Under the pieces are notes generated by a model that was given only the letters and a program-made list of their open reading frames with translations, had not been told where the DNA came from and searched no databases. 64,000 nucleotides of DNA from positions 124,001 to 188,000 of the forward strand of contig LDYB01000019.1 in the NCBI GenBank assembly GCA_001442985.1, given 5' to 3'. Of the stretch, positions 10,604 to 52,256 are shown piece by piece. Numbering within the stretch: position 1 is the stretch's first letter; the number at the start of each line of letters is the position of its first letter. Both the position numbers and the translations under genes were made by a program. This DNA is from Armatimonadetes bacterium DC (GTDB taxonomy: Bacteria > Armatimonadota > Fimbriimonadia > Fimbriimonadales > GBS-DC).

Positions 10604-11158
10604 CTATTCGAAAAGTTCGCGCAGGGGTATCTTTAATCCTGTCAGCACGGGTGCGCCGTCCAGTGTGTCGTTTTCGGAAAGCACCTGCACCTGCCCTCCG
10701 GCACGCCACACCTCCACCAGCCGCCTCTGGGGGTCTACCACCCACACCACCTGCGCTCCGCCCGCCAGCCACTCCTGCGCCTTTTCGCGCACGGCGCTTT
10801 CGGTTTCGTTGGGGGAGACGACTTCCACCACCAGGTCAGGCACAATCGGGCAGAAGCCGCTGGGGAGGTCGGTTTCGGGGAGGCGTTCTTTGCGGATGAA
10901 TGCCACATCGGGCGCCAGCACGCTCTCACCTGCAGGCGTGCGCACCACAAAACCTGTTTCTGCGGCAAACAGCTCCCCTTCGTTTGTTTGGGTCAGATAG
11001 GTTCCAATCCGCACCGTGAGGCGTGCGGCGATGCGTCCGTGTCGGAATCCTGCGGGCATCGTTTCGCGTACCTCCCCGCGCCAGAGTTCGGCATTTTTGC
11101 CAAGATAGCGCTGCTCGAACTCCGCCACGCTCAATCGCTCGCTAACAGCACGGGACAT
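10604..11158 (-). CDS. Uma2-family (DUF820) putative endonuclease, copy A
   Basis: The 184-residue PD-(D/E)xK-fold protein has the Uma2 pattern: LAPDVAFIRKERL, PDLVVEVVSPNETES, then KAQEWLAGGAQVVWVVDP. The biological role of Uma2 proteins is not established. The start MSRAVSERLS at 11158 was chosen by comparison with the adjacent paralogue; the frame extends further upstream. A -10 (TATAAT on the minus strand, 11183-11178) and GGTGA lie upstream. It is nearly identical to the next gene except for a block of about 22 residues (from RIAARLTVRIG), which is unrelated in sequence. Confidence 0.85.
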   Translation of the reverse strand: MSRAVSERLSVAEFEQRYLGKNAELWRGEVRETMPAGFRHGRIAARLTVRIGTYLTQTNEGELFAAETGFVVRTPAGESVLAPDVAFIRKERLPETDLPSGFCPIVPDLVVEVVSPNETESAVREKAQEWLAGGAQVVWVVDPQRRLVEVWRAGGQVQVLSENDTLDGAPVLTGLKIPLRELFE

Positions 11159-11201
11159 AGGGTATTCACCAGAGGGGATTATACCGCAGCCACACAGGGC
11201 A

Positions 11202-11771
11202 TCAGCGCCCCAATCCCTCTTCAAACACCTCTTTCAAAGGTATCCGCAACCCCTCCAGCACGGGTGCGCCGTCCAGTGTGTCGTTTTCGGAAAGCACCTG
11301 CACCTGCCCCTCAGCACGCCATACCTCCACCACCCGCCGCTGGGGGTCTACCACCCACACCACCTGCACTCCGCCTGCCAGCCACTCCTGCGCCTTTTCG
11401 CGCACGGCGCTTTCGGTTTCGTTGGGGGAAACGACTTCCACCACTAAATCGGGCACAATCGGGCAGAAGCCGCTGGGGAGATCGGTTTCGGGGAGGCGTT
11501 CTTTGCGGATGAATGCCACATCGGGCGCCAGCACGCTCTCCCCTGCAGGCGTGCGCACCACAAAACCTGTCTCGGCGGCGAACGCAACGCCCAGCTGATG
11601 CCGACGCACAAACTCGTGGATTGCCGCACCGATATGAAGCGCAATCTTGCCATGTCTGAAGCCAGCAGGCATCGTTTCGCGTACCTCCCCGCGCCAGAGT
11701 TCGGCATTTTTGCCAAGATAGCGCTGCTCGAACTCCGCCACGCTCAATCGCTCACTCACAGCACGGGACAT
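11202..11771 (-). CDS. Uma2-family (DUF820) putative endonuclease, copy B
   Basis: This is the tandem paralogue of copy A, 189 residues, sharing its first 43 residues and nearly everything after AAETGFVV. The central block KIALHIGAAIHEFVRRHQ replaces the one in copy A. The C-terminus adds EEGLGR. The ATG at 11771 directly follows an in-frame GTG. The -10 (TATAAT on the minus strand, 11795-11790) and GGTGAG resemble those of copy A, so promoter and gene were duplicated together. Order on the message is copy B, copy A, then the restriction enzyme. Confidence 0.85.
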   Translation of the reverse strand: MSRAVSERLSVAEFEQRYLGKNAELWRGEVRETMPAGFRHGKIALHIGAAIHEFVRRHQLGVAFAAETGFVVRTPAGESVLAPDVAFIRKERLPETDLPSGFCPIVPDLVVEVVSPNETESAVREKAQEWLAGGVQVVWVVDPQRRVVEVWRAEGQVQVLSENDTLDGAPVLEGLRIPLKEVFEEGLGR

Positions 11772-30116: not shown

Positions 30117-32954
30117 TCACCCCTCAAAAAGCGTCGGCGCGGGCTGGGATGTTTCGGAGAGGGGGGCAACCGTCTCTATCGGGGCGGCTCCGTCCAGCTT
30201 CTCGAACACCTGACTGGTGCGGGTGCGTTCATCCCGTACCACATACAGGCACCGCTCCGCCGACTCGTTGATGTCTTCAATATGGGAAATCACTAAAATT
30301 TGCTCAAACCAGTCGCGCAGGGTGTTGAGCAGGTTCAGCACACTGGCGCGGCGTTCGGTGTCCAGCGAGCCGAACACCTCGTCTAAAATCAGCAGCGAGA
30401 GGGGTTGCCCCGCGCGTTCGGTAATTAGCCGCGCCAGTGCCAGCCGCAGGCTGAGGTTCACCACATCCTCCTCGCCGCCCGAAATCACCGTCTTGCGAAT
30501 GCCGTCGTCTATCAGGTAGAACCGAAACTGTTCGTCAATCTCAATCTGGCTGTAGCGTCCGTTGGTGAGCGAGGCGAGGAACTCGCTGGCGTAGCCTGCA
30601 AGCATAGGGCGCAGGCGAGTGTTAAGTTCCTTCTGGAAGTCCTGCATGGCGGTGCGCAGGGTGCGATAGAAGGCGGCTTCGCGTTGTTTCTGTTCCAGCT
30701 GGCGTTTGCGGGTGCGTGCCTGCTCAATCTGCTGGTGCAGGTTCTCAATCAGGCGCTGGAGGGCGTCAGCCTGGGAAAGGTGTTCGTGGCGCTGGCGTTC
30801 GAGCGCCTCGCGCTGGCTCCGCGCCTGCTGATAGGCTGCTTCGGCGTGCTGATAGTCTTCCTCTGAATAGTTCAGCGCGCGCAGTTGGGTTTCTACCTGC
30901 TGGAGTTGCTGGGCGTTCTCTTCTTTGCGGGCGCGGAGGGTGGCAATCTGCTCTTTGAGGGGGTCGTAGTCTTTCAGCAGGGTGTGGAGCTGGAGCGCCT
31001 CTTCGTACACAGGCTGGAGCTGTTGGAGTTCGTTGCGGACTTCCTCGTGGCGCTGGGGGTCATAGCCTGTGGGCAGGCTTTCAAGTTGCTGGCTGAGGCG
31101 GGCGATCTCGCGCGTGCGCTGGCTGATTTCGCGCTCTATCTGGGGCAGGCGTTTCAGCTCGCCCTCCAGTTGTTGCGCCTGGCTCTGGACAGGTTTGAGC
31201 GACTCAATTTGTTGCAACAGCGCTTGCTCTTCCTGGGGGTCGTAGGTGGGGATGTCCTGGAGTTCCGCCTCTCTTTGCTGGCGCAGGGTTTCCAGTTCTT
31301 TCAGCCGTTGCAGCTCCTGCTTCAGGTGGTGCGCCTGCTGTTTGAGTTGCGCCAGTTTCTGGTTCTCGGCGTCCCACTTTTGCTGGAGTTGCTGGAGTTC
31401 GTTTTGGGCACGAATGAGTTCACTGGGTTCTTTGGCGAGTTTTTGAACTTGCTGGCGTTGCTGGGCGCACTCGCGCTCGGCGTTCTCCAGTTCCTGGCGC
31501 ACATGCTGGAGGACTTCTTCATAGGCGTCGCCGAGCGGTTGCCCGCAGGTGGGGCACTCGGTCGCTTCGCCGAGCGATTCGAGTTGTTCGAGCCGTTGCA
31601 GGAGCTGGTCGCGCGTGAGTTCCGCGGCGTGCAGGGCAGCCTGCGCCTCGGCGCGCGCCGCGTGCCAGTGCTCACGAATCTGGTGGAGAGCGTTCTCCTT
31701 TGCTTCGCGCTCCTTGCGAATCTGGCGCAGGGCTGACTCTTGCTGCTCAATCTGGCTCTGGAGCTGAGCGTGCTGGGTCTCCTGCGCTTTGAGCTGGTCT
31801 ATCTGCTGGTCAAGGTGCTGGATTTCGGTTTCGAGTTGGGCGCGTTTCTGGGCTTGCTGGGCGCGCTGGCGCACTTCGCGCAGCTTCACTTCCGCCTGCT
31901 TCAGTTCGTTCAGCGGGGATTGAAGCGATTCGAGTTGCGCCCGTTTCTGGAGCAGTTCGTCTTGCTGTTGCTGGAGCGCCTCGAGCTGTTGTTCCAGGCT
32001 CTGCCGCTGGGCAGTGAGTTGGACGCGCTGGTGTTCATACTGAGCAAGTTCGTCCAGAGTGCGCAGTTGTTTTACCAGTTCCCTGTAGCGCTCGGCTTGC
32101 GGCTTGAGTTCCGTGAGGCGTTTTTTTGCCTCCTGCATCTCCTGCCAGCGCTGTCGGAGGTGCTGTTCCTGCTCAGCGAGGTTCGCCTGATCGCGCTCCA
32201 GCAGTGCCTTTTGTTGCAGCAGGCTCTGATAGGTTTGCCGTCGCGCCTGCTGGGTTTCGAGCTGGAGCTGAGCGTGGGCTTCCGCCTGCCGCGCCTGTTC
32301 CAGCTGGGCATCCAGTTGCTGAAGTGCGTGCTGGTGGTGCTGGAGTTCCTGCTGGGCGTGTTCGGCTTGCGCTTCGAGGGCGGTGGTGTCGCCGATGCCT
32401 TGCATCAGTCCGCTCACTTCGGCGTCGAGGGCGCGGGTGCGCTGGGTGAGGTTGTCCAGCACAGTGCGGATGCGCTCATAGCCGAGCATGCGGCTGATTT
32501 CCTCGCGCCGTTTTTCGGGTGCGTAGCTCATAAACTCCAGCTCTTTCTGGCGGGCGCAGAAGCTGGTCTGGAACTGGAGCAGGTTCATGCCCAGCAGTTT
32601 AGGCACGGCGTCGTTCACGCTGGAGGTGCCGCGGGCAAGGGGCGTCCAGCCGTTCTGGGTGTGATGGGCAAGCATGGCGTCTTTGAGGGTACGGCTAACC
32701 TGATAGCGTCGCCCGCCGAGTTCGAACTCCAGCACGACACGCACCTGACTGCCGCCCTGCGACCAGAGGAACCGCACGGTGTCGGTGCCTTCGCGCAGGG
32801 CGCGTGCGCCATAAAGCGCCCAGAGGATGGCTTCCAGCAGCGTGCTTTTACCCGCGCCGTTCGCACCGACTATCGCCGTGATGCCCGTGCTGAACTGGAT
32901 CTGCGCTTTCGCATACTGACGGAAGTTCTCCAGCTCCAGGGCAATCAGGCGCAT
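30117..32954 (-). CDS. sbcC: SbcC/Rad50-type ATPase of the Mre11 complex
   Basis: The N-terminal ATPase lobe has Walker A GANGAGKST (residues 30-38). The signature VISGGEEDVVNLSLRLALA and Walker B LLILDEVFGSLD lie at the C-terminus. Between them are about 600 residues of Gln- and Leu-rich coiled coil with the zinc-hook motif CPTCGQPL near residue 467. The 945 residues are typical. It works with SbcD to cut hairpins and break ends; no sbcD is in the window. The coding strand is very Gln-rich, which creates long antisense frames. It starts 3 nt after the secreted hypothetical gene ends. Confidence 0.94.
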   Translation of the reverse strand: MRLIALELENFRQYAKAQIQFSTGITAIVGANGAGKSTLLEAILWALYGARALREGTDTVRFLWSQGGSQVRVVLEFELGGRRYQVSRTLKDAMLAHHTQNGWTPLARGTSSVNDAVPKLLGMNLLQFQTSFCARQKELEFMSYAPEKRREEISRMLGYERIRTVLDNLTQRTRALDAEVSGLMQGIGDTTALEAQAEHAQQELQHHQHALQQLDAQLEQARQAEAHAQLQLETQQARRQTYQSLLQQKALLERDQANLAEQEQHLRQRWQEMQEAKKRLTELKPQAERYRELVKQLRTLDELAQYEHQRVQLTAQRQSLEQQLEALQQQQDELLQKRAQLESLQSPLNELKQAEVKLREVRQRAQQAQKRAQLETEIQHLDQQIDQLKAQETQHAQLQSQIEQQESALRQIRKEREAKENALHQIREHWHAARAEAQAALHAAELTRDQLLQRLEQLESLGEATECPTCGQPLGDAYEEVLQHVRQELENAERECAQQRQQVQKLAKEPSELIRAQNELQQLQQKWDAENQKLAQLKQQAHHLKQELQRLKELETLRQQREAELQDIPTYDPQEEQALLQQIESLKPVQSQAQQLEGELKRLPQIEREISQRTREIARLSQQLESLPTGYDPQRHEEVRNELQQLQPVYEEALQLHTLLKDYDPLKEQIATLRARKEENAQQLQQVETQLRALNYSEEDYQHAEAAYQQARSQREALERQRHEHLSQADALQRLIENLHQQIEQARTRKRQLEQKQREAAFYRTLRTAMQDFQKELNTRLRPMLAGYASEFLASLTNGRYSQIEIDEQFRFYLIDDGIRKTVISGGEEDVVNLSLRLALARLITERAGQPLSLLILDEVFGSLDTERRASVLNLLNTLRDWFEQILVISHIEDINESAERCLYVVRDERTRTSQVFEKLDGAAPIETVAPLSETSQPAPTLFEG

Positions 32955-39134: not shown

Positions 39135-39193
39135 AAACTCCCTAAATTACTGGCAGGAACTTTTGGCGTATCGCGCGAATCTAATTCGTTACT

Positions 39194-39974
39194 ATGAGCA
39201 GGCAGCGAGGCTTTACTCTGATTGAGTTGCTGGTCGTCATCGCGATTATCGCCATTCTGGCGGCGATCCTGTTCCCGGTCTTTGCGCAGGCGCGTGAAAA
39301 GGCGCGCCAGACCCAGTGTGTGAACAACATGAAGCAGATCGCGCTCGGCGTGCTTCAATATGTCCAGGACTACGACGAACGCTTCCCCTTTAGCATCTAC
39401 CTGACCGTTCAGAACAACCAGCCCTGCATTTTCCGCGATGTACCCGTATATCAAGAATGTCGACATCGTACTGTGCCCCTCGGATCGGCAGGCGTTCGAT
39501 GTCACGGGAAGCTTTGGGCAGTTCGGCATTCCCGTTTGCACCATTCCGGGCTTCCGATATTCGGGCTATATCTTCAACTGGTGCGTGTTTGAGAACGGGA
39601 ATGTACCGAACTTGCTCCAGCAGAACCCGCCTGTCTCGATGGCGCAGATAGAGTTTCCCGTGAACACCTCCATGCTCTACGACGGCACGCTGGGACCTCC
39701 ACTGACCATTCAATCGTATCTGCAGGCGCGGCATAACCAGCTGGCGCCCGCCAACTTTGTGGACGGGCACGCCCGCACGGTCAAGGGGCGCCTGGCGGAT
39801 CCGCCCAACAACACGGTGCAGACATGGGACGGCAAAACCGCGCGCCTCTACTATGTGGGCGAGCAGGGTCCCTATCAGGGACAGTTTAACCTGTGGGGCA
39901 TCGCAGCGCAACGGGCGAACGGCACATGGTGCCGCAACTGCCCCAATCGCAACGACCCCGGCAACTGCAACTGA
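39194..39974 (+). pseudogene. Type II secretion/prepilin-like (DUF1559-type) protein, frameshifted
   Basis: The first frame (39194-39592) starts with the prepilin cleavage/methylation motif [20 protein letters not shown] and [16 protein letters not shown]. The continuation lies in another frame, with [21 protein letters not shown], then LYDGTLGPPL and HNQLAPANFVDGHA, down to 39974. Reading one base fewer in the CCC at 39422-39424 joins them into one protein of about 259 residues. Such proteins are abundant in Armatimonadota and Planctomycetes. A hairpin follows the stop. The break could be a sequencing error, a phase-variable tract or true decay. Confidence 0.8.
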
Positions 39975-39977
39975 TCC

Positions 39978-40014
39978 GTGTCTCCCCTCTCCAGAACAGG
40001 GGAAGGGGAGACAC
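39978..40014 (+). terminator. Hairpin after the prepilin-like gene
   Basis: GTGTCTCCCCT (39978-39988) pairs with AGGGGAGACAC (40004-40014), with partial pairing inside the loop. No T-run. It lies directly after the stop and just before the 46-bp direct repeat. Confidence 0.6.
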
Positions 40015-40017
40015 ACG

Positions 40018-40063
40018 GCAGGAATCCCCCCACACTTGCTGAATCACCCGCTCTGATGGGTTT
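40018..40063 (+). repeat. 46-bp direct repeat, left copy
   Basis: This is identical over 46 bp to 40592-40637 (starts GCAGGAATCCCCCCACAC, ends GCTCTGATGGGTTT). The pair brackets the VapBC-like genes. The ATG inside the right copy is the start of the downstream membrane protein. Confidence 0.95.
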
Positions 40064-40094
40064 CCGCAACGGGTGCGCACAACTGGGGGTGTGG

Positions 40095-40100
40095 TATAAT
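40095..40100 (+). promoter_or_regulatory. -10 element of the antitoxin-toxin pair
   Basis: TATAAT, followed by AGGGGGAGA as ribosome site and ATG at 40120. No obvious -35. The promoter lies between the 46-bp repeats, so the cassette carries its own. Confidence 0.6.
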
Positions 40101-40119
40101 CTCAGGGGGAGAATGCAAA

Positions 40120-40356
40120 ATGCCAGAAATTATTGAGGGTACTCTGAGCGAAATCATCCAACAGCGCCCTGAACTCTCTGGAAAGCGGGTCAGGCTTTAT
40201 GTGCTGGAGGACGGGCAGCCAGCCCAGAACCTGCTGGAGTTTCTCGGCGATTGGGTTGGGTCGGTTCACATCCCTGACTCTCTGCAGTCCACAGAGCAGG
40301 AGACCGTAGTGGAGCAGGCTGTCTCTGAGAAACTTCTGAATCGCTCACAGCCGTGA
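40120..40356 (+). CDS. VapB-type antitoxin-like protein
   Basis: The 78-residue protein starts with a short motif EIIEGTLSEIIQQRPELSGKR (read as IEGTLSEIIQQRPEL). It ends with a C-terminal tail of the kind seen in antitoxins paired with PIN toxins (PDSLQSTEQETVVEQAVSEK). It overlaps the downstream toxin start by GTGA. It would bind DNA and neutralise the toxin, by inference from position. No close family name is assigned. Confidence 0.65.
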   Translation: MPEIIEGTLSEIIQQRPELSGKRVRLYVLEDGQPAQNLLEFLGDWVGSVHIPDSLQSTEQETVVEQAVSEKLLNRSQP

Positions 40357-40586
40357 TTCTCTGCGATACGGGGGCGTTAGTTGCTCTCCTCAATGCTGGT
40401 GATTCCGCGCACGCTCGATGCGTTCAGGCGGCGGCTCATCTGCCCCCCGAGCCGCTGAACTTTGCTGACGCCTCTATCGTCGCAGCCGCCGAGGTACTGG
40501 GCATAAAAACGCTCTTCTCGCTTGACAGCGACTTTCATATCTACAGATTGTACGGACGCGAGCCGTTCACGATAGTCCCTGAATAA
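40353..40586 (+). CDS. Internally deleted PIN-domain (VapC-like) toxin
   Basis: The N-terminus MILCDTGALVALLNAGDSAH has the first PIN aspartate (D5). The C-terminus has the third (D39 in NFADASIVAAAEVLG) and LDSDF (D58/D60). PIN toxins are normally about 130-140 residues; this one has 77, and the segment between QAAAHLPPEPL and NFADAS that normally carries the second acidic residue is missing. About 55-60 residues seem lost in frame. RNase activity is therefore doubtful. GTG start coupled to the antitoxin. Confidence 0.75.
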   Translation: MILCDTGALVALLNAGDSAHARCVQAAAHLPPEPLNFADASIVAAAEVLGIKTLFSLDSDFHIYRLYGREPFTIVPE

Positions 40587-40591
40587 ACCAT

Positions 40592-40637
40592 GCAGGAATC
40601 CCCCCACACTTGCTGAATCACCCGCTCTGATGGGTTT
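40592..40637 (+). repeat. 46-bp direct repeat, right copy
   Basis: A perfect second copy of 40018-40063. It contains the ATG (40630) of the 655-residue membrane protein, so the left copy may be a duplicated piece of that gene's 5' end. Confidence 0.95.
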
Positions 40638-42597
40638 GCATGGAGGCACGCAGGCGGAGCGCACCCTCATCCGCATCGGACGCACTTTGCTCGCAGGGAC
40701 GCTCCTTACGGCACTTACTTCGGTGATTGTTGCTTCGGCGGAGCTGATTGCCCAGACCATTCAGATTGGCATGATGCAGTTGCCCCCTGTGGTGATTGCG
40801 CTCCTGTTTCTGCTGGTGCTATTCAATCGGGGGCTGGCGCGGCTCCGTCGCGAATGGGCGTTCACCACCCCAGAGCTGGCGGTTCTGTTCGTGATGATGC
40901 TTTTTGGGGCGATGCTGGCGTCCCGCGGGCTGATGGAACGCCTGATACCCACGCAGGTCGGCGTGAGCTATTATGCCGAGGGCAACCGCTGGGAAACGCT
41001 CTACTTCCCTCATATCCGCCCCGAAATCGTGCCATGGGACCCTCAACAACCCCAGCCTGAGCCGCTGGTGAAGCATTTTTATCAGCGGCTCCCCTATGGG
41101 CAGTCTATCCCGTGGGGCGCGTGGATTGCCTCGACCGCGCGCTGGCTGGTCTTGATTGGGGCGGTGTTTTTCGCGTTTCTGTGTATCAGTGTGCTGTTGC
41201 GCAAGCAGTGGGTGGAAAACGAGCGTCTTGCGTTTCCGCTGGTGCAGCTGCCGCTGGAGCTGATGCGCGAGGGCGAGTTTTTTCGCAACCGCGCGTTCTG
41301 GTTCGGGGCGCTCGTACCGCTGTTTGTGTTCACACTGAACGGGCTACATCGCAACATCCCCACGCTCCCAGAAATCCCGCTGAACCTGCCCCTGAAACCC
41401 TTCTTCGTCAACCCGCCGTATGATCAGATCACCTTTTTCAGCATCTACTTCTCGTTCGCGGCGGTGGGGTTCTTCTTTCTCATCCCGACCGAGCTGCTGT
41501 TCAGTTTCTGGTTCTTTTATCTTTTGAGCAAGGCGCTGGAGATTCTGGGGCTGGGGCTGGGCTTTGACACGACGGCGAAACACGCGGCGACGGCGGGGTT
41601 CGTCAAGTGGCTCTGTTCGGGCGCGTTTTTCGGGGTGGCGCTCTATATTCTCTATTCGGCGCGCCATCATCTACGCTACATCTGGCAGGTGGCGACGGGT
41701 CAGGCGCCGCCGCCCCCACCCGGCAGCGAGCTGATGTCGTATCGCGTCGCGTTCTGGGGGCTAATCGCTTCGTTTCTGGTGATTGTAGCGTGGTCGGCAT
41801 GGGCAGGGATGGACTGGTGGCTGGCAGGCGTCGTGTTCGCCATCTATCTGCTGGTGCAGGGGCTGGTGATGGCGCGTTGCACGGCGGAAGGCGGGCTGCT
41901 GATTACCGAAGGCTGCTTCACGCCGATGGATGTCGTCACGATGGAGAAATACTCGCTCTTGACCCCGCGCAACCTCACGGCGATGGCGTTTCTGGACGCG
42001 ATGCTCTTTCGCGATTTGCGCGGTATCACGCTCACGGGCTATCTGGACACGCAGAAACTCTCCGACGAAGTGCGCCTGCATCGCAAAACCCTGTTTCAAA
42101 CGCTGCTGGGCGGAATCGTGCTGGCGATTGTTGTGGCGTTCGCCTTTCAGCTGTGGCTCCCGTATCAATATGGCGCGTTGAATCTATATGGGTATGTGTA
42201 TCAGCGTCAGCCGATTCAGTTCTTTCAGGAGAATGCGCCGTTTATGGGGGGCGGCGGTGCGGAGACACCTGTGCCCGCGTTTCGCCCGCTCTTTTTCGGG
42301 CTGGGGTTTGTGATGACGCTGCTGCTGGCGTGGGCGCGTGCCGTGTGGGTGGGGTTCCCGTTCCATCCGCTGGGGTTCGCCATGAGCGCGACCTGGGGCG
42401 TGGTGATTCTGTGGTTCTCGATGCTGGTGGCATGGCTGATTAAGGTGCCGCTGTTGCGCTATGGCGGGATGGCGCTCTATCGTCGGGCGCGCCCGTTCTT
42501 TCTGGGGCTGATTTTCGGCGAGTTTTTCTCGGCGGCGGTGTGGGCGCTGCTCGCCCTGCTGTTCGGCGTGGAGACGCCCAACTACCCCTGGCCATAG
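40630..42597 (+). CDS. Polytopic membrane protein (DUF6785/DUF6784-like), possible oligopeptide-type transporter
   Basis: The 655-residue protein has about 12-14 hydrophobic helices, with blocks VENERLAFPLVQLPLELM, ELLFSFWFFYLLSKALEI and HPLGFAMSATWGVVILWFS. These recall a membrane family frequent in Armatimonadota and Planctomycetes (family name from memory) and, more distantly, OPT transporters. Substrate unknown. ATG at 40630 lies within the 46-bp repeat and has no ribosome site; the native leader may have been replaced when the repeat formed. Followed by the convergent transsulfuration gene after 3 bp. Confidence 0.7.
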   Translation: MGLHGGTQAERTLIRIGRTLLAGTLLTALTSVIVASAELIAQTIQIGMMQLPPVVIALLFLLVLFNRGLARLRREWAFTTPELAVLFVMMLFGAMLASRGLMERLIPTQVGVSYYAEGNRWETLYFPHIRPEIVPWDPQQPQPEPLVKHFYQRLPYGQSIPWGAWIASTARWLVLIGAVFFAFLCISVLLRKQWVENERLAFPLVQLPLELMREGEFFRNRAFWFGALVPLFVFTLNGLHRNIPTLPEIPLNLPLKPFFVNPPYDQITFFSIYFSFAAVGFFFLIPTELLFSFWFFYLLSKALEILGLGLGFDTTAKHAATAGFVKWLCSGAFFGVALYILYSARHHLRYIWQVATGQAPPPPPGSELMSYRVAFWGLIASFLVIVAWSAWAGMDWWLAGVVFAIYLLVQGLVMARCTAEGGLLITEGCFTPMDVVTMEKYSLLTPRNLTAMAFLDAMLFRDLRGITLTGYLDTQKLSDEVRLHRKTLFQTLLGGIVLAIVVAFAFQLWLPYQYGALNLYGYVYQRQPIQFFQENAPFMGGGGAETPVPAFRPLFFGLGFVMTLLLAWARAVWVGFPFHPLGFAMSATWGVVILWFSMLVAWLIKVPLLRYGGMALYRRARPFFLGLIFGEFFSAAVWALLALLFGVETPNYPWP

Positions 42598-50074: not shown

Positions 50075-50932
50075 ATGGAAGAGATTACTGCAGAGTTCAC
50101 GCGCGAAGAGCTTTTGCCAATGCCTGACGAGCCGTTGCGTATCCTGCCGCGCATCAAGCTGGCGGTGCGGTCGGAAATCGGGCTGGTGCGCGAGAATAAC
50201 GAAGATAAGTTTGACTTCTACGAGCCTGACGAGCCAGAGCTGCTGGCGGCACGGGGCAGTGCTTATGTCGTGTGCGACGGCATGGGTGGGCATAACGCGG
50301 GACAGATTGCCAGCGAGCTGGCAGCGCGCCAGTTCCTGTACGCCTACTATCATCACGGCGGTGAGGCGCAGGAATGTGCGCATCGGGCAGTGTTGCAGGC
50401 GCACCAGTATATCGCCGACATGGCACGGAAAATTCCCTCTCGCCGGGATATGGGCACGACCCTGACTGCTCTGATTTTGCGTCAGGACACGGGTATGCTG
50501 GTGCATGTGGGCGACAGCCGCTGCTATCGGTTGCGTGGTGAGGAGTTTCAGCAGCTCTCGCGCGACCACACGCTGGTAGCGCAGTGGGTGGAGCAGGGGA
50601 TTCTCACCCCCGAAGCTGCGCGGTTCCATCCCTACAAAAATGTGATTCGGCAGGCGGTGGGAGTCGTGGGCGAGGGCGAAACGCTGGAACCCGATATTGA
50701 GACCTTCCCGATACAGGCAGGCGATGTGTATCTGCTCTGCTCGGACGGGCTGACCGACATGGTTCCCGACGAGGTGATTGAGCAGATTCTCAAAACCGAG
50801 CCGCCCAGCCGCGCCGCATGGAAACTGTTAGACCGCGCCCTTGCCGAAGGAGGGCAAGACAATATCACGGTCGCCATAATCAAAGTGCTGGAACTGGTGG
50901 CGCCTGAGGCGGGGTATCATACAGAGGGGTGA
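50075..50932 (+). CDS. PP2C-family serine/threonine protein phosphatase
   Basis: The 285-residue phosphatase (Stp1/PrpC type) has the metal-binding VRENNEDKFDFYEPD, YVVCDGMGGHNAGQIAS, MGTTLTALIL and VGDSRCYRLR, then LLCSDGLTDMVPDEVI and GGQDNITVAIIKVLE. It would dephosphorylate proteins modified by Ser/Thr kinases; no kinase is near. ATG at 50075 has GGAG 6 nt upstream. Its last 42 bp are duplicated before the second uma2 copy at 51651. Confidence 0.93.
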   Translation: MEEITAEFTREELLPMPDEPLRILPRIKLAVRSEIGLVRENNEDKFDFYEPDEPELLAARGSAYVVCDGMGGHNAGQIASELAARQFLYAYYHHGGEAQECAHRAVLQAHQYIADMARKIPSRRDMGTTLTALILRQDTGMLVHVGDSRCYRLRGEEFQQLSRDHTLVAQWVEQGILTPEAARFHPYKNVIRQAVGVVGEGETLEPDIETFPIQAGDVYLLCSDGLTDMVPDEVIEQILKTEPPSRAAWKLLDRALAEGGQDNITVAIIKVLELVAPEAGYHTEG

Positions 50933-51485
50933 AAGAACAGTGGCAACCACTGCCCAAACGGTGCGACGCAAGCGGCGCTACACGGAAGAAGATCTGAAGC
51001 GTCTTCCCCGGGATGGCTACAAATATGAACTGGTGAATGGGAGGATACGGCAAGTGCCCACAGGTGGACGGCATGGCGAACTCGGCGCGGGGCTTACGGC
51101 TCGACTCTGGAACCATGTGCGGCGCTGGGCGAAGGTGTACGACTCCAGCACAGGGTTCCGCATGAACTCAGGCAACATCCGTAGCCCCGATGTGTCGGTC
51201 TTGCGCAAGGAGCGGCTTGAAGGGGGTAAATCCCCAGAAGACTTTATCGATGGCGCCCCTGATTTGGCGGTGGAGATTGTTTCGCCTTCGGAGCGTCCTG
51301 CGGAGATTTACGCAAAGCTGGGGGAGTATTTTGAGTCGGGGGCGCAGGAGGTGTGGCTGATTTTCCCTGAGCGCAAGCAGGTGCATCGCTACACGCCGTC
51401 GTTGCAGGTGCAGGTGCTGAACGAAAACGAGGTGCTGACCACGCCACTGTTGCCTGACTTTGAGCTGCCCCTCCGCGAGCTGTTT
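50891..51485 (+). repeat. Tandem duplication unit, first copy (PP2C tail plus uma2)
   Basis: A near-identical copy is at 51651-52244, offset by about 760 bp with one small indel just before the uma2 start. The unit begins inside the last codons of the phosphatase and ends near the end of uma2. Few base changes, mostly silent, show that it is recent. Confidence 0.9.
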
Positions 51486-51497
51486 GAAGGGGTGTGA
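50940..51497 (+). CDS. Uma2-family putative endonuclease, copy C
   Basis: The 185-residue Uma2 protein has YELVNGRIRQVPTGGRHGEL, SPDVSVLRKERL, PDLAVEIVSPSERPAEIY and LGEYFESGAQEVWLIFPE. It belongs to a different Uma2 subgroup from copies A and B. GTG start just after the phosphatase stop. It differs from copy D only in the last residues (EGV versus EEA). Function unknown. Confidence 0.85.
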   Translation: MATTAQTVRRKRRYTEEDLKRLPRDGYKYELVNGRIRQVPTGGRHGELGAGLTARLWNHVRRWAKVYDSSTGFRMNSGNIRSPDVSVLRKERLEGGKSPEDFIDGAPDLAVEIVSPSERPAEIYAKLGEYFESGAQEVWLIFPERKQVHRYTPSLQVQVLNENEVLTTPLLPDFELPLRELFEGV

Positions 51498-51628
51498 GGG
51501 AGGGCGCAGAGTTTTACTATGTTCTTCGGCTGGCTTTACGGCGCAACTGGCGTGCCCAGCGCGTGCTGGAAATCTTCTCGTATTTTGCTTCTACGGTTAT
51601 GTCCACCCGTATTGTCTCTATTGCATGA
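51494..51628 (+). CDS. Small ORF overlapping the uma2 stop (GTGA), 44 residues
   Basis: GTG at 51494 overlaps the uma2 TGA by 4 bp, like other coupled genes here. The product (REGAEFYYVLRLALRRNW onward) is basic with a hydrophobic C-terminus. No homologue recognised. It may be chance, because the sequence lies in the joint between two duplicated units. Confidence 0.3.
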   Translation: MREGAEFYYVLRLALRRNWRAQRVLEIFSYFASTVMSTRIVSIA

Positions 51629-51650
51629 TGCCACGCCTTTGCTATCAGAA

Positions 51651-52244
51651 GAACTGGTGGCGCCTGAGGCGGGGTATCATACAGAGGGGTGAACAATCGT
51701 GGCGACCACTGCCCAAACGGTGCGACGCAAACGGCGCTACACGGAAGAAGACCTGAAGCGTCTTCCCCGGGATGGCTACAAATATGAACTGGTGAACGGG
51801 AGGATACGGCAAGTGCCCACAGGTGGACGGCATGGCGAACTCGGCGCGGGGCTTACGGCTCGACTCTGGAACCATGTGCGGCGCTGGGCGAAGGTGTACG
51901 ACTCCAGCACAGGGTTCCGCATGAACTCAGGCAACATCCGTAGCCCCGATGTGTCGGTCTTGCGCAAGGAGCGGCTTGAAGGGGGTAAATCCCCAGAAGA
52001 CTTTATCGATGGCGCCCCTGATTTGGCGGTGGAGATTGTTTCGCCTTCGGAGCGTCCTGCGGAGATTTATGCGAAGCTGGGGGAGTATTTTGAGTCGGGG
52101 GCGCAGGAGGTGTGGCTGATTTTCCCTGAGCGCAAGCAGGTGCATCGCTACACGCCGTCGTTGCAGGTGCAGGTGTTGAACGAGAACGAGGTGCTGACCA
52201 CGCCACTGTTGCCTGACTTTGAGCTGCCCCTCCGCGAGCTGTTC
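51651..52244 (+). repeat. Tandem duplication unit, second copy
   Basis: Second copy of 50891-51485. The 166-bp joint between the units (51486-51650) is not repeated elsewhere in the window. Confidence 0.9.
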
Positions 52245-52256
52245 GAGGAGGCGTGA
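51699..52256 (+). CDS. Uma2-family putative endonuclease, copy D
   Basis: Essentially identical to copy C over the first 183 residues, with the same GTG start. It is preceded by a copy of the phosphatase 3' end, so it may rely on read-through or on sequence in the repeated tail (TATCAT 51675-51680) for transcription. The stop overlaps a GTG (GTGA), and the small gene with ATG at 52259 follows. Confidence 0.85.
   Translation: MATTAQTVRRKRRYTEEDLKRLPRDGYKYELVNGRIRQVPTGGRHGELGAGLTARLWNHVRRWAKVYDSSTGFRMNSGNIRSPDVSVLRKERLEGGKSPEDFIDGAPDLAVEIVSPSERPAEIYAKLGEYFESGAQEVWLIFPERKQVHRYTPSLQVQVLNENEVLTTPLLPDFELPLRELFEEA

Follow-up and report, generated by a model that had tools for sequence, protein, structure and literature searches.

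Type II toxin–antitoxin operons of the VapBC kind, such as that of Mycobacterium tuberculosis VapC26, encode a small antitoxin followed by a start–stop-coupled PIN-domain toxin and have their own promoter. The same layout was found in the window analysed here, a 64-kb stretch of DNA (G000:C19:124001-188000), within a cassette bracketed by a direct repeat. In contrast to the VapBC operons, the antitoxin belonged to no known family, and the PIN protein was 77 aa long, with a gap of 60 residues in its centre that includes the second catalytic acid. Mobile DNA leaves a target site duplication, a perfect direct repeat which abuts the insert on both sides and whose joined flanks are intact. These properties were shared by the locus, but the duplication was 46 bp long, was accompanied by neither terminal inverted repeats nor a transposase and represented a single case. 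The promoters of ECF sigma factors combine a GGAA-type -35 block with a -10 block about 16–17 nt downstream. The repeat described here carried a motif likewise built of two conserved blocks, GGCAGGA and CGAATC, which together spanned a constant length of about 29 nt immediately 5' of start codons. Literature searches gave no match for repeat-flanked toxin–antitoxin insertions in titles and abstracts and no paper on promoter motifs of Armatimonadetes or Fimbriimonadales.

The 46-bp repeat and the cassette between its copies

Sequence comparison agreed with the preliminary description of the locus as to the exactness and position of the two 46-bp copies (Table 1). The copies were 574 bp apart and the flanks outside them were unrelated to each other on both sides, while the chance expectation for such a pair in the 64-kb window was about 4e-18. 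At the edges of the right copy, CCATGC (40588–40593) and GCATGG (40638–40643) formed a 6-bp inverted pair.

The whole-genome search revealed only two copies of the 46-mer in 2.85 Mb, both at this locus. The possibility raised earlier that the 46-mer is a common dispersed intergenic repeat was checked against this genome-wide count, and a dispersed exact repeat was ruled out, with just the two copies in this genome and no match in 20 related ones at up to 3 mismatches over 41 bases. The non-dispersed character applied to the whole sequence, which was unique to the locus, but not to its core, which belonged to a dispersed promoter-like motif. The class of cassettes bounded by the same 46 bp that the preliminary description had envisaged did not emerge, as no further copy was present in the genome or in the 20 relatives.

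The genome is a draft of 26 contigs and its named relatives (Armatimonadetes/Fimbriimonadales) are metagenome-assembled, which would suit an assembly artefact or a strain mixture as the source of the repeat pair. Such an origin was nevertheless given very little credence: both genes of the cassette were open and coupled, the contig was 391 kb long and a repeat of 46 bp is short for an assembler misjoin.

Table 1. Features of the repeat-flanked locus (positions refer to the window)
Feature	Position	Strand	Basis or remark
Terminator-like hairpin after the prepilin-like gene	39971..40016	+	fold -28.5 kcal/mol, z -4.4
Left repeat copy	40018..40063	+	exact match to the right copy; motif, leader, ATG at 40056
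Cassette, putatively inserted, 528 bp	40064..40591	+	between the repeat copies, abutting both
TATAAT -10 box of the antitoxin–PIN operon	40095..40100	+	sequence
Antitoxin-like gene, 78 aa	40120..40356	+	50% identity with its counterpart in a full-length pair of genome G017
PIN-domain toxin gene, 77 aa	40353..40586	+	in-frame internal deletion of 60 codons
Right repeat copy	40592..40637	+	architecture shared with 10 of 12 DUF6785 orthologues
DUF6785/DUF6784 membrane protein gene, 655 aa	40630..42597	+	Pfam

All the elements ascribed to the 528-bp cassette before, namely its own -10, the antitoxin-like gene and the GTGA-coupled PIN gene, were found at the locus, the GTG start of the PIN gene overlapping the antitoxin TGA by 4 nt. 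The GC content of the cassette was 56% versus 61% for the window, which ranks among the lowest 4% of values for the window. The ATG of the left copy opened a 26-codon ORF (40056–40136) overlapping the antitoxin start, and the left promoter, if transcribing, would read into the antitoxin–PIN pair. On the other side, the hairpin following the prepilin-like gene ended directly 5' of the left copy. This DUF1559 gene (39194–39974) showed an apparent frameshift split near 39438, with the N-terminal and C-terminal parts lying in different frames.

The toxin–antitoxin pair and its relatives

No Pfam or NCBIfam family matched the 78-aa antitoxin, and a search with it gave one match in its own genome. 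Related pairs were present in several genomes of the family, with the antitoxin-then-PIN order kept in G017, G001, G011, G007 and G009 and a TATAAT/TATCAT-like box also located just 5' of the antitoxin. These pairs adjoined unrelated genes.

The five PIN relatives that were aligned were intact and 136–141 aa long, and the earlier characterization of the pair as shrunken was borne out: the protein encoded here missed 60 aa in frame from its middle, between PEPL and NFADAS, all of which were present in the five relatives. The deleted part holds the second catalytic acid (the Glu in ..FVEA../..FTET.. of the relatives) and the middle of the fold, and the shortened protein has an incomplete complement of the conserved active-site acids. 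Its match to the Pfam PIN profile (PF01850, E 7e-6) was confined to profile positions 83–115 of 120, whereas the match of the intact G017 relative extended over 2–122, with a weak match to VapC26 (5x3t) in addition. An AlphaFold model of the 77-aa protein, run without an alignment, was of low confidence (pLDDT 47). Due to the deletion of the second acid and of the middle of the fold, the pair was read as a decayed VapBC-like module. Judging from the sequence, the toxin is probably dead and the pair a non-toxic remnant.

Repeats were noted among the flanks of seven relatives of the pair, comprising one tandem antitoxin copy, one unrelated repeat and one 12-mer; none of the seven had flanking repeats comparable to the 46-bp pair. 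Flanking repeats as a general habit of this toxin–antitoxin family were thus rejected (0/7). The same result bears on a Campbell-like integration, in which a site-specific recombinase acting in trans would have integrated a circle that brought in the pair together with a 46-bp attachment site matching the chromosomal promoter exactly, the repeats being the attL and attR cores. Integrative elements do leave behind identical cores in direct orientation, by which the target gene is made whole again. The lack of shared flanking repeats among the relatives of the pair, the lack of a recombinase in the cassette and the fact that the core bounded no other cassette in the genome or in the 20 relatives make such an integration improbable.

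The native copy and the promoter-like motif

As described previously, the right copy holds the start codon of the downstream membrane gene; it spans the motif, the leader and the beginning of the DUF6785 coding sequence, namely the ATG (40630), codon 2 and codon 3 up to its second base. The orthologues of this gene that were compared came from other genera of the same family and were 66–78% identical. In 10 of the 12, a composite of [CT]AGGA, a fixed spacer and [CT]GAA[TCA] (total span 26–27 nt) was followed by a gap of 9–12 nt and the ATG, mostly in the context ATGGC, while the same composite occurred in 0.15% of random genome stretches used as a control. This conservation marks the right copy as the promoter, leader and start codon that belong to the membrane gene itself, and it is regarded as the native promoter unit of the DUF6785 gene, promoter activity being predicted from the sequence pattern. 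The left copy, directly 3' of the prepilin hairpin, was judged to be the additional one. An inverted pair, CCTGT...(A/G)CAGG, was conserved upstream of the DUF6785 orthologues (L086, L087, L088, L090, L092, L095 and L110), where it overlapped the -35-like block; it was absent 5' of the left copy in the window.

The repeat starts with GGCAGGAATC-N13-TGAATC, an instance of a two-block motif with a span of about 29 nt (40017–40045 at the left copy). The first G of the consensus was present at the left copy only, one base before the repeat (40017). When the sequence 5' of the left copy (the prepilin hairpin and the first G of the motif) was joined to the sequence 3' of the right copy (the membrane gene), an intact native arrangement resulted. 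Outer flanks that together form one plausible native site are the signature of insertion with target duplication.

In the form GGCAGGA-N16-CGAATC, the motif was promoter-like across the family, lying shortly 5' of start codons. The pattern GGCAGGA-N12-30-CGAATC gave 31 sites in the genome versus 0 for the reversed control pattern. A narrower form was detected in 45 of the 61 related genomes; within the same family it reached 35 occurrences per genome, and elsewhere it was rare. Most of the fetched sites were situated shortly 5' of start codons, and about half of the matches to a looser form were found at called gene starts in the 464 kb sampled. The genes behind the motif, named by eye, included those resembling a DnaE-type polymerase subunit, a thymidine kinase and a nucleotidyltransferase. 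A further copy was located 5' of the prepilin gene (39152–39181). Both its span and its position match what is expected of a sigma-factor promoter, and the motif is probably recognised by a sigma factor, predicted to be of the ECF type. In another contig, about 490 bp were duplicated with 99.6% identity at a distance of 5.6 kb (G000:C7:26666-27157 and 32282-32773; L065, L066 and L084), each copy having the promoter-like motif 5' of a gene with weak matches to sigma-70 regions 2 and 4.

Origin of the duplication

The best reading of the locus is that the pair was acquired horizontally and that the promoter downstream was restored by a 46-bp duplication of the target. That a VapBC-like pair was inserted at the promoter of the membrane gene, that 46 bp were duplicated and that the toxin decayed is, taken together, considered rather likely. 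A small antitoxin–PIN operon with its own promoter would have entered the promoter of the DUF6785 gene, and 46 bp would have been duplicated at entry, either by a staggered break with fill-in or by template-switch repair during the capture of foreign DNA. The downstream gene would thereby have retained its promoter and start codon in full, with the left copy ending up upstream of the antitoxin, and the toxin would have lost 180 nt in frame afterwards or before arrival. Both the order of these events and the mechanism of duplication are what we infer.

The insertion duplicating 46 bp that had been proposed in the preliminary description was retained as the simplest reading, since the orthologues were pair-free with the architecture of the right copy and the relatives of the pair resided elsewhere, but neither an excised form nor an empty site in a close relative was seen in the genomes compared. 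Neither an antitoxin nor a PIN gene was found in flanks of up to 3 kb around the DUF6785 orthologues; gene order there was not conserved, so this absence constitutes supporting, weak evidence. A duplication of 46 bp is also long for a transposition, which speaks against the insertion. Moreover, the edges of the repeat closely matched those of the promoter unit, which counts against a random staggered break, as such a break predicts no such fit. The fit could reflect either chance or selection, the latter favouring insertions after which the membrane gene was still expressed.

The main alternative to the insertion with target duplication, unlikely but ahead of the integration, the transposon with long duplications and the assembly artefact, is that the promoter unit was duplicated first, in tandem or by copying upstream, and the pair landed between the copies, or that a pair already in place upstream received a copy of the promoter ahead of it. 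Tandem duplications of promoter plus gene do recur in this genome (window 50891–52250 and 10643–11750; C14:62800–64050 and 200900–202700). This course of events nevertheless requires two steps, 464 kb contained no comparable case of a promoter duplicated in tandem on its own, and the repeat touches the cassette on both sides with no leftover. The two tandems in the window were near-identical, with spacings of 759 and 613 bp, and the gene in the 50891–52250 tandem appeared by eye to be of the Uma2 type.

The cassette contained two genes only, with no transposase, integrase or recombinase in its 528 bp, a size too small to accommodate a recombinase, and in its outer 100 bp a search for terminal inverted repeats of 7 bp or longer gave none. 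Families similar to IS1634 produce target duplications of tens to hundreds of bp. For a non-autonomous transposon of such a family, however, the ends without terminal inverted repeats and the single copy in the genome leave only a slim chance.

Apart from parts of duplicated genes, the 464 kb sampled contained no further isolated direct repeat of 40 bp or longer with its copies no more than 5 kb apart, and the event looks singular in the genome. The nearest thing to a lone repeat was a CRISPR-like array (G000:C14:187644-187820, L173) with 36–38-bp repeats (GTCACGAAAGACCGCCCCTGTGCAGGGGATTGAAAC) spaced 70–71 bp. The locus is a neat but isolated example of how genomes ordinarily rearrange and decay. 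A recombinase-free route operating in the lineage, with an active promoter as the target and the whole promoter-to-start unit duplicated, is quite improbable; if true, it would let cassettes gain a host promoter while the downstream gene stays functional.

The locus offers a clean snapshot of a small toxin–antitoxin pair entering a promoter, sparing the gene behind it and then decaying. Of greater use is a by-product, the promoter-like motif, which may matter more than the repeat-flanked pair, as in the mostly uncultured Fimbriimonadales (Armatimonadota) such a motif would aid the reading of gene regulation.
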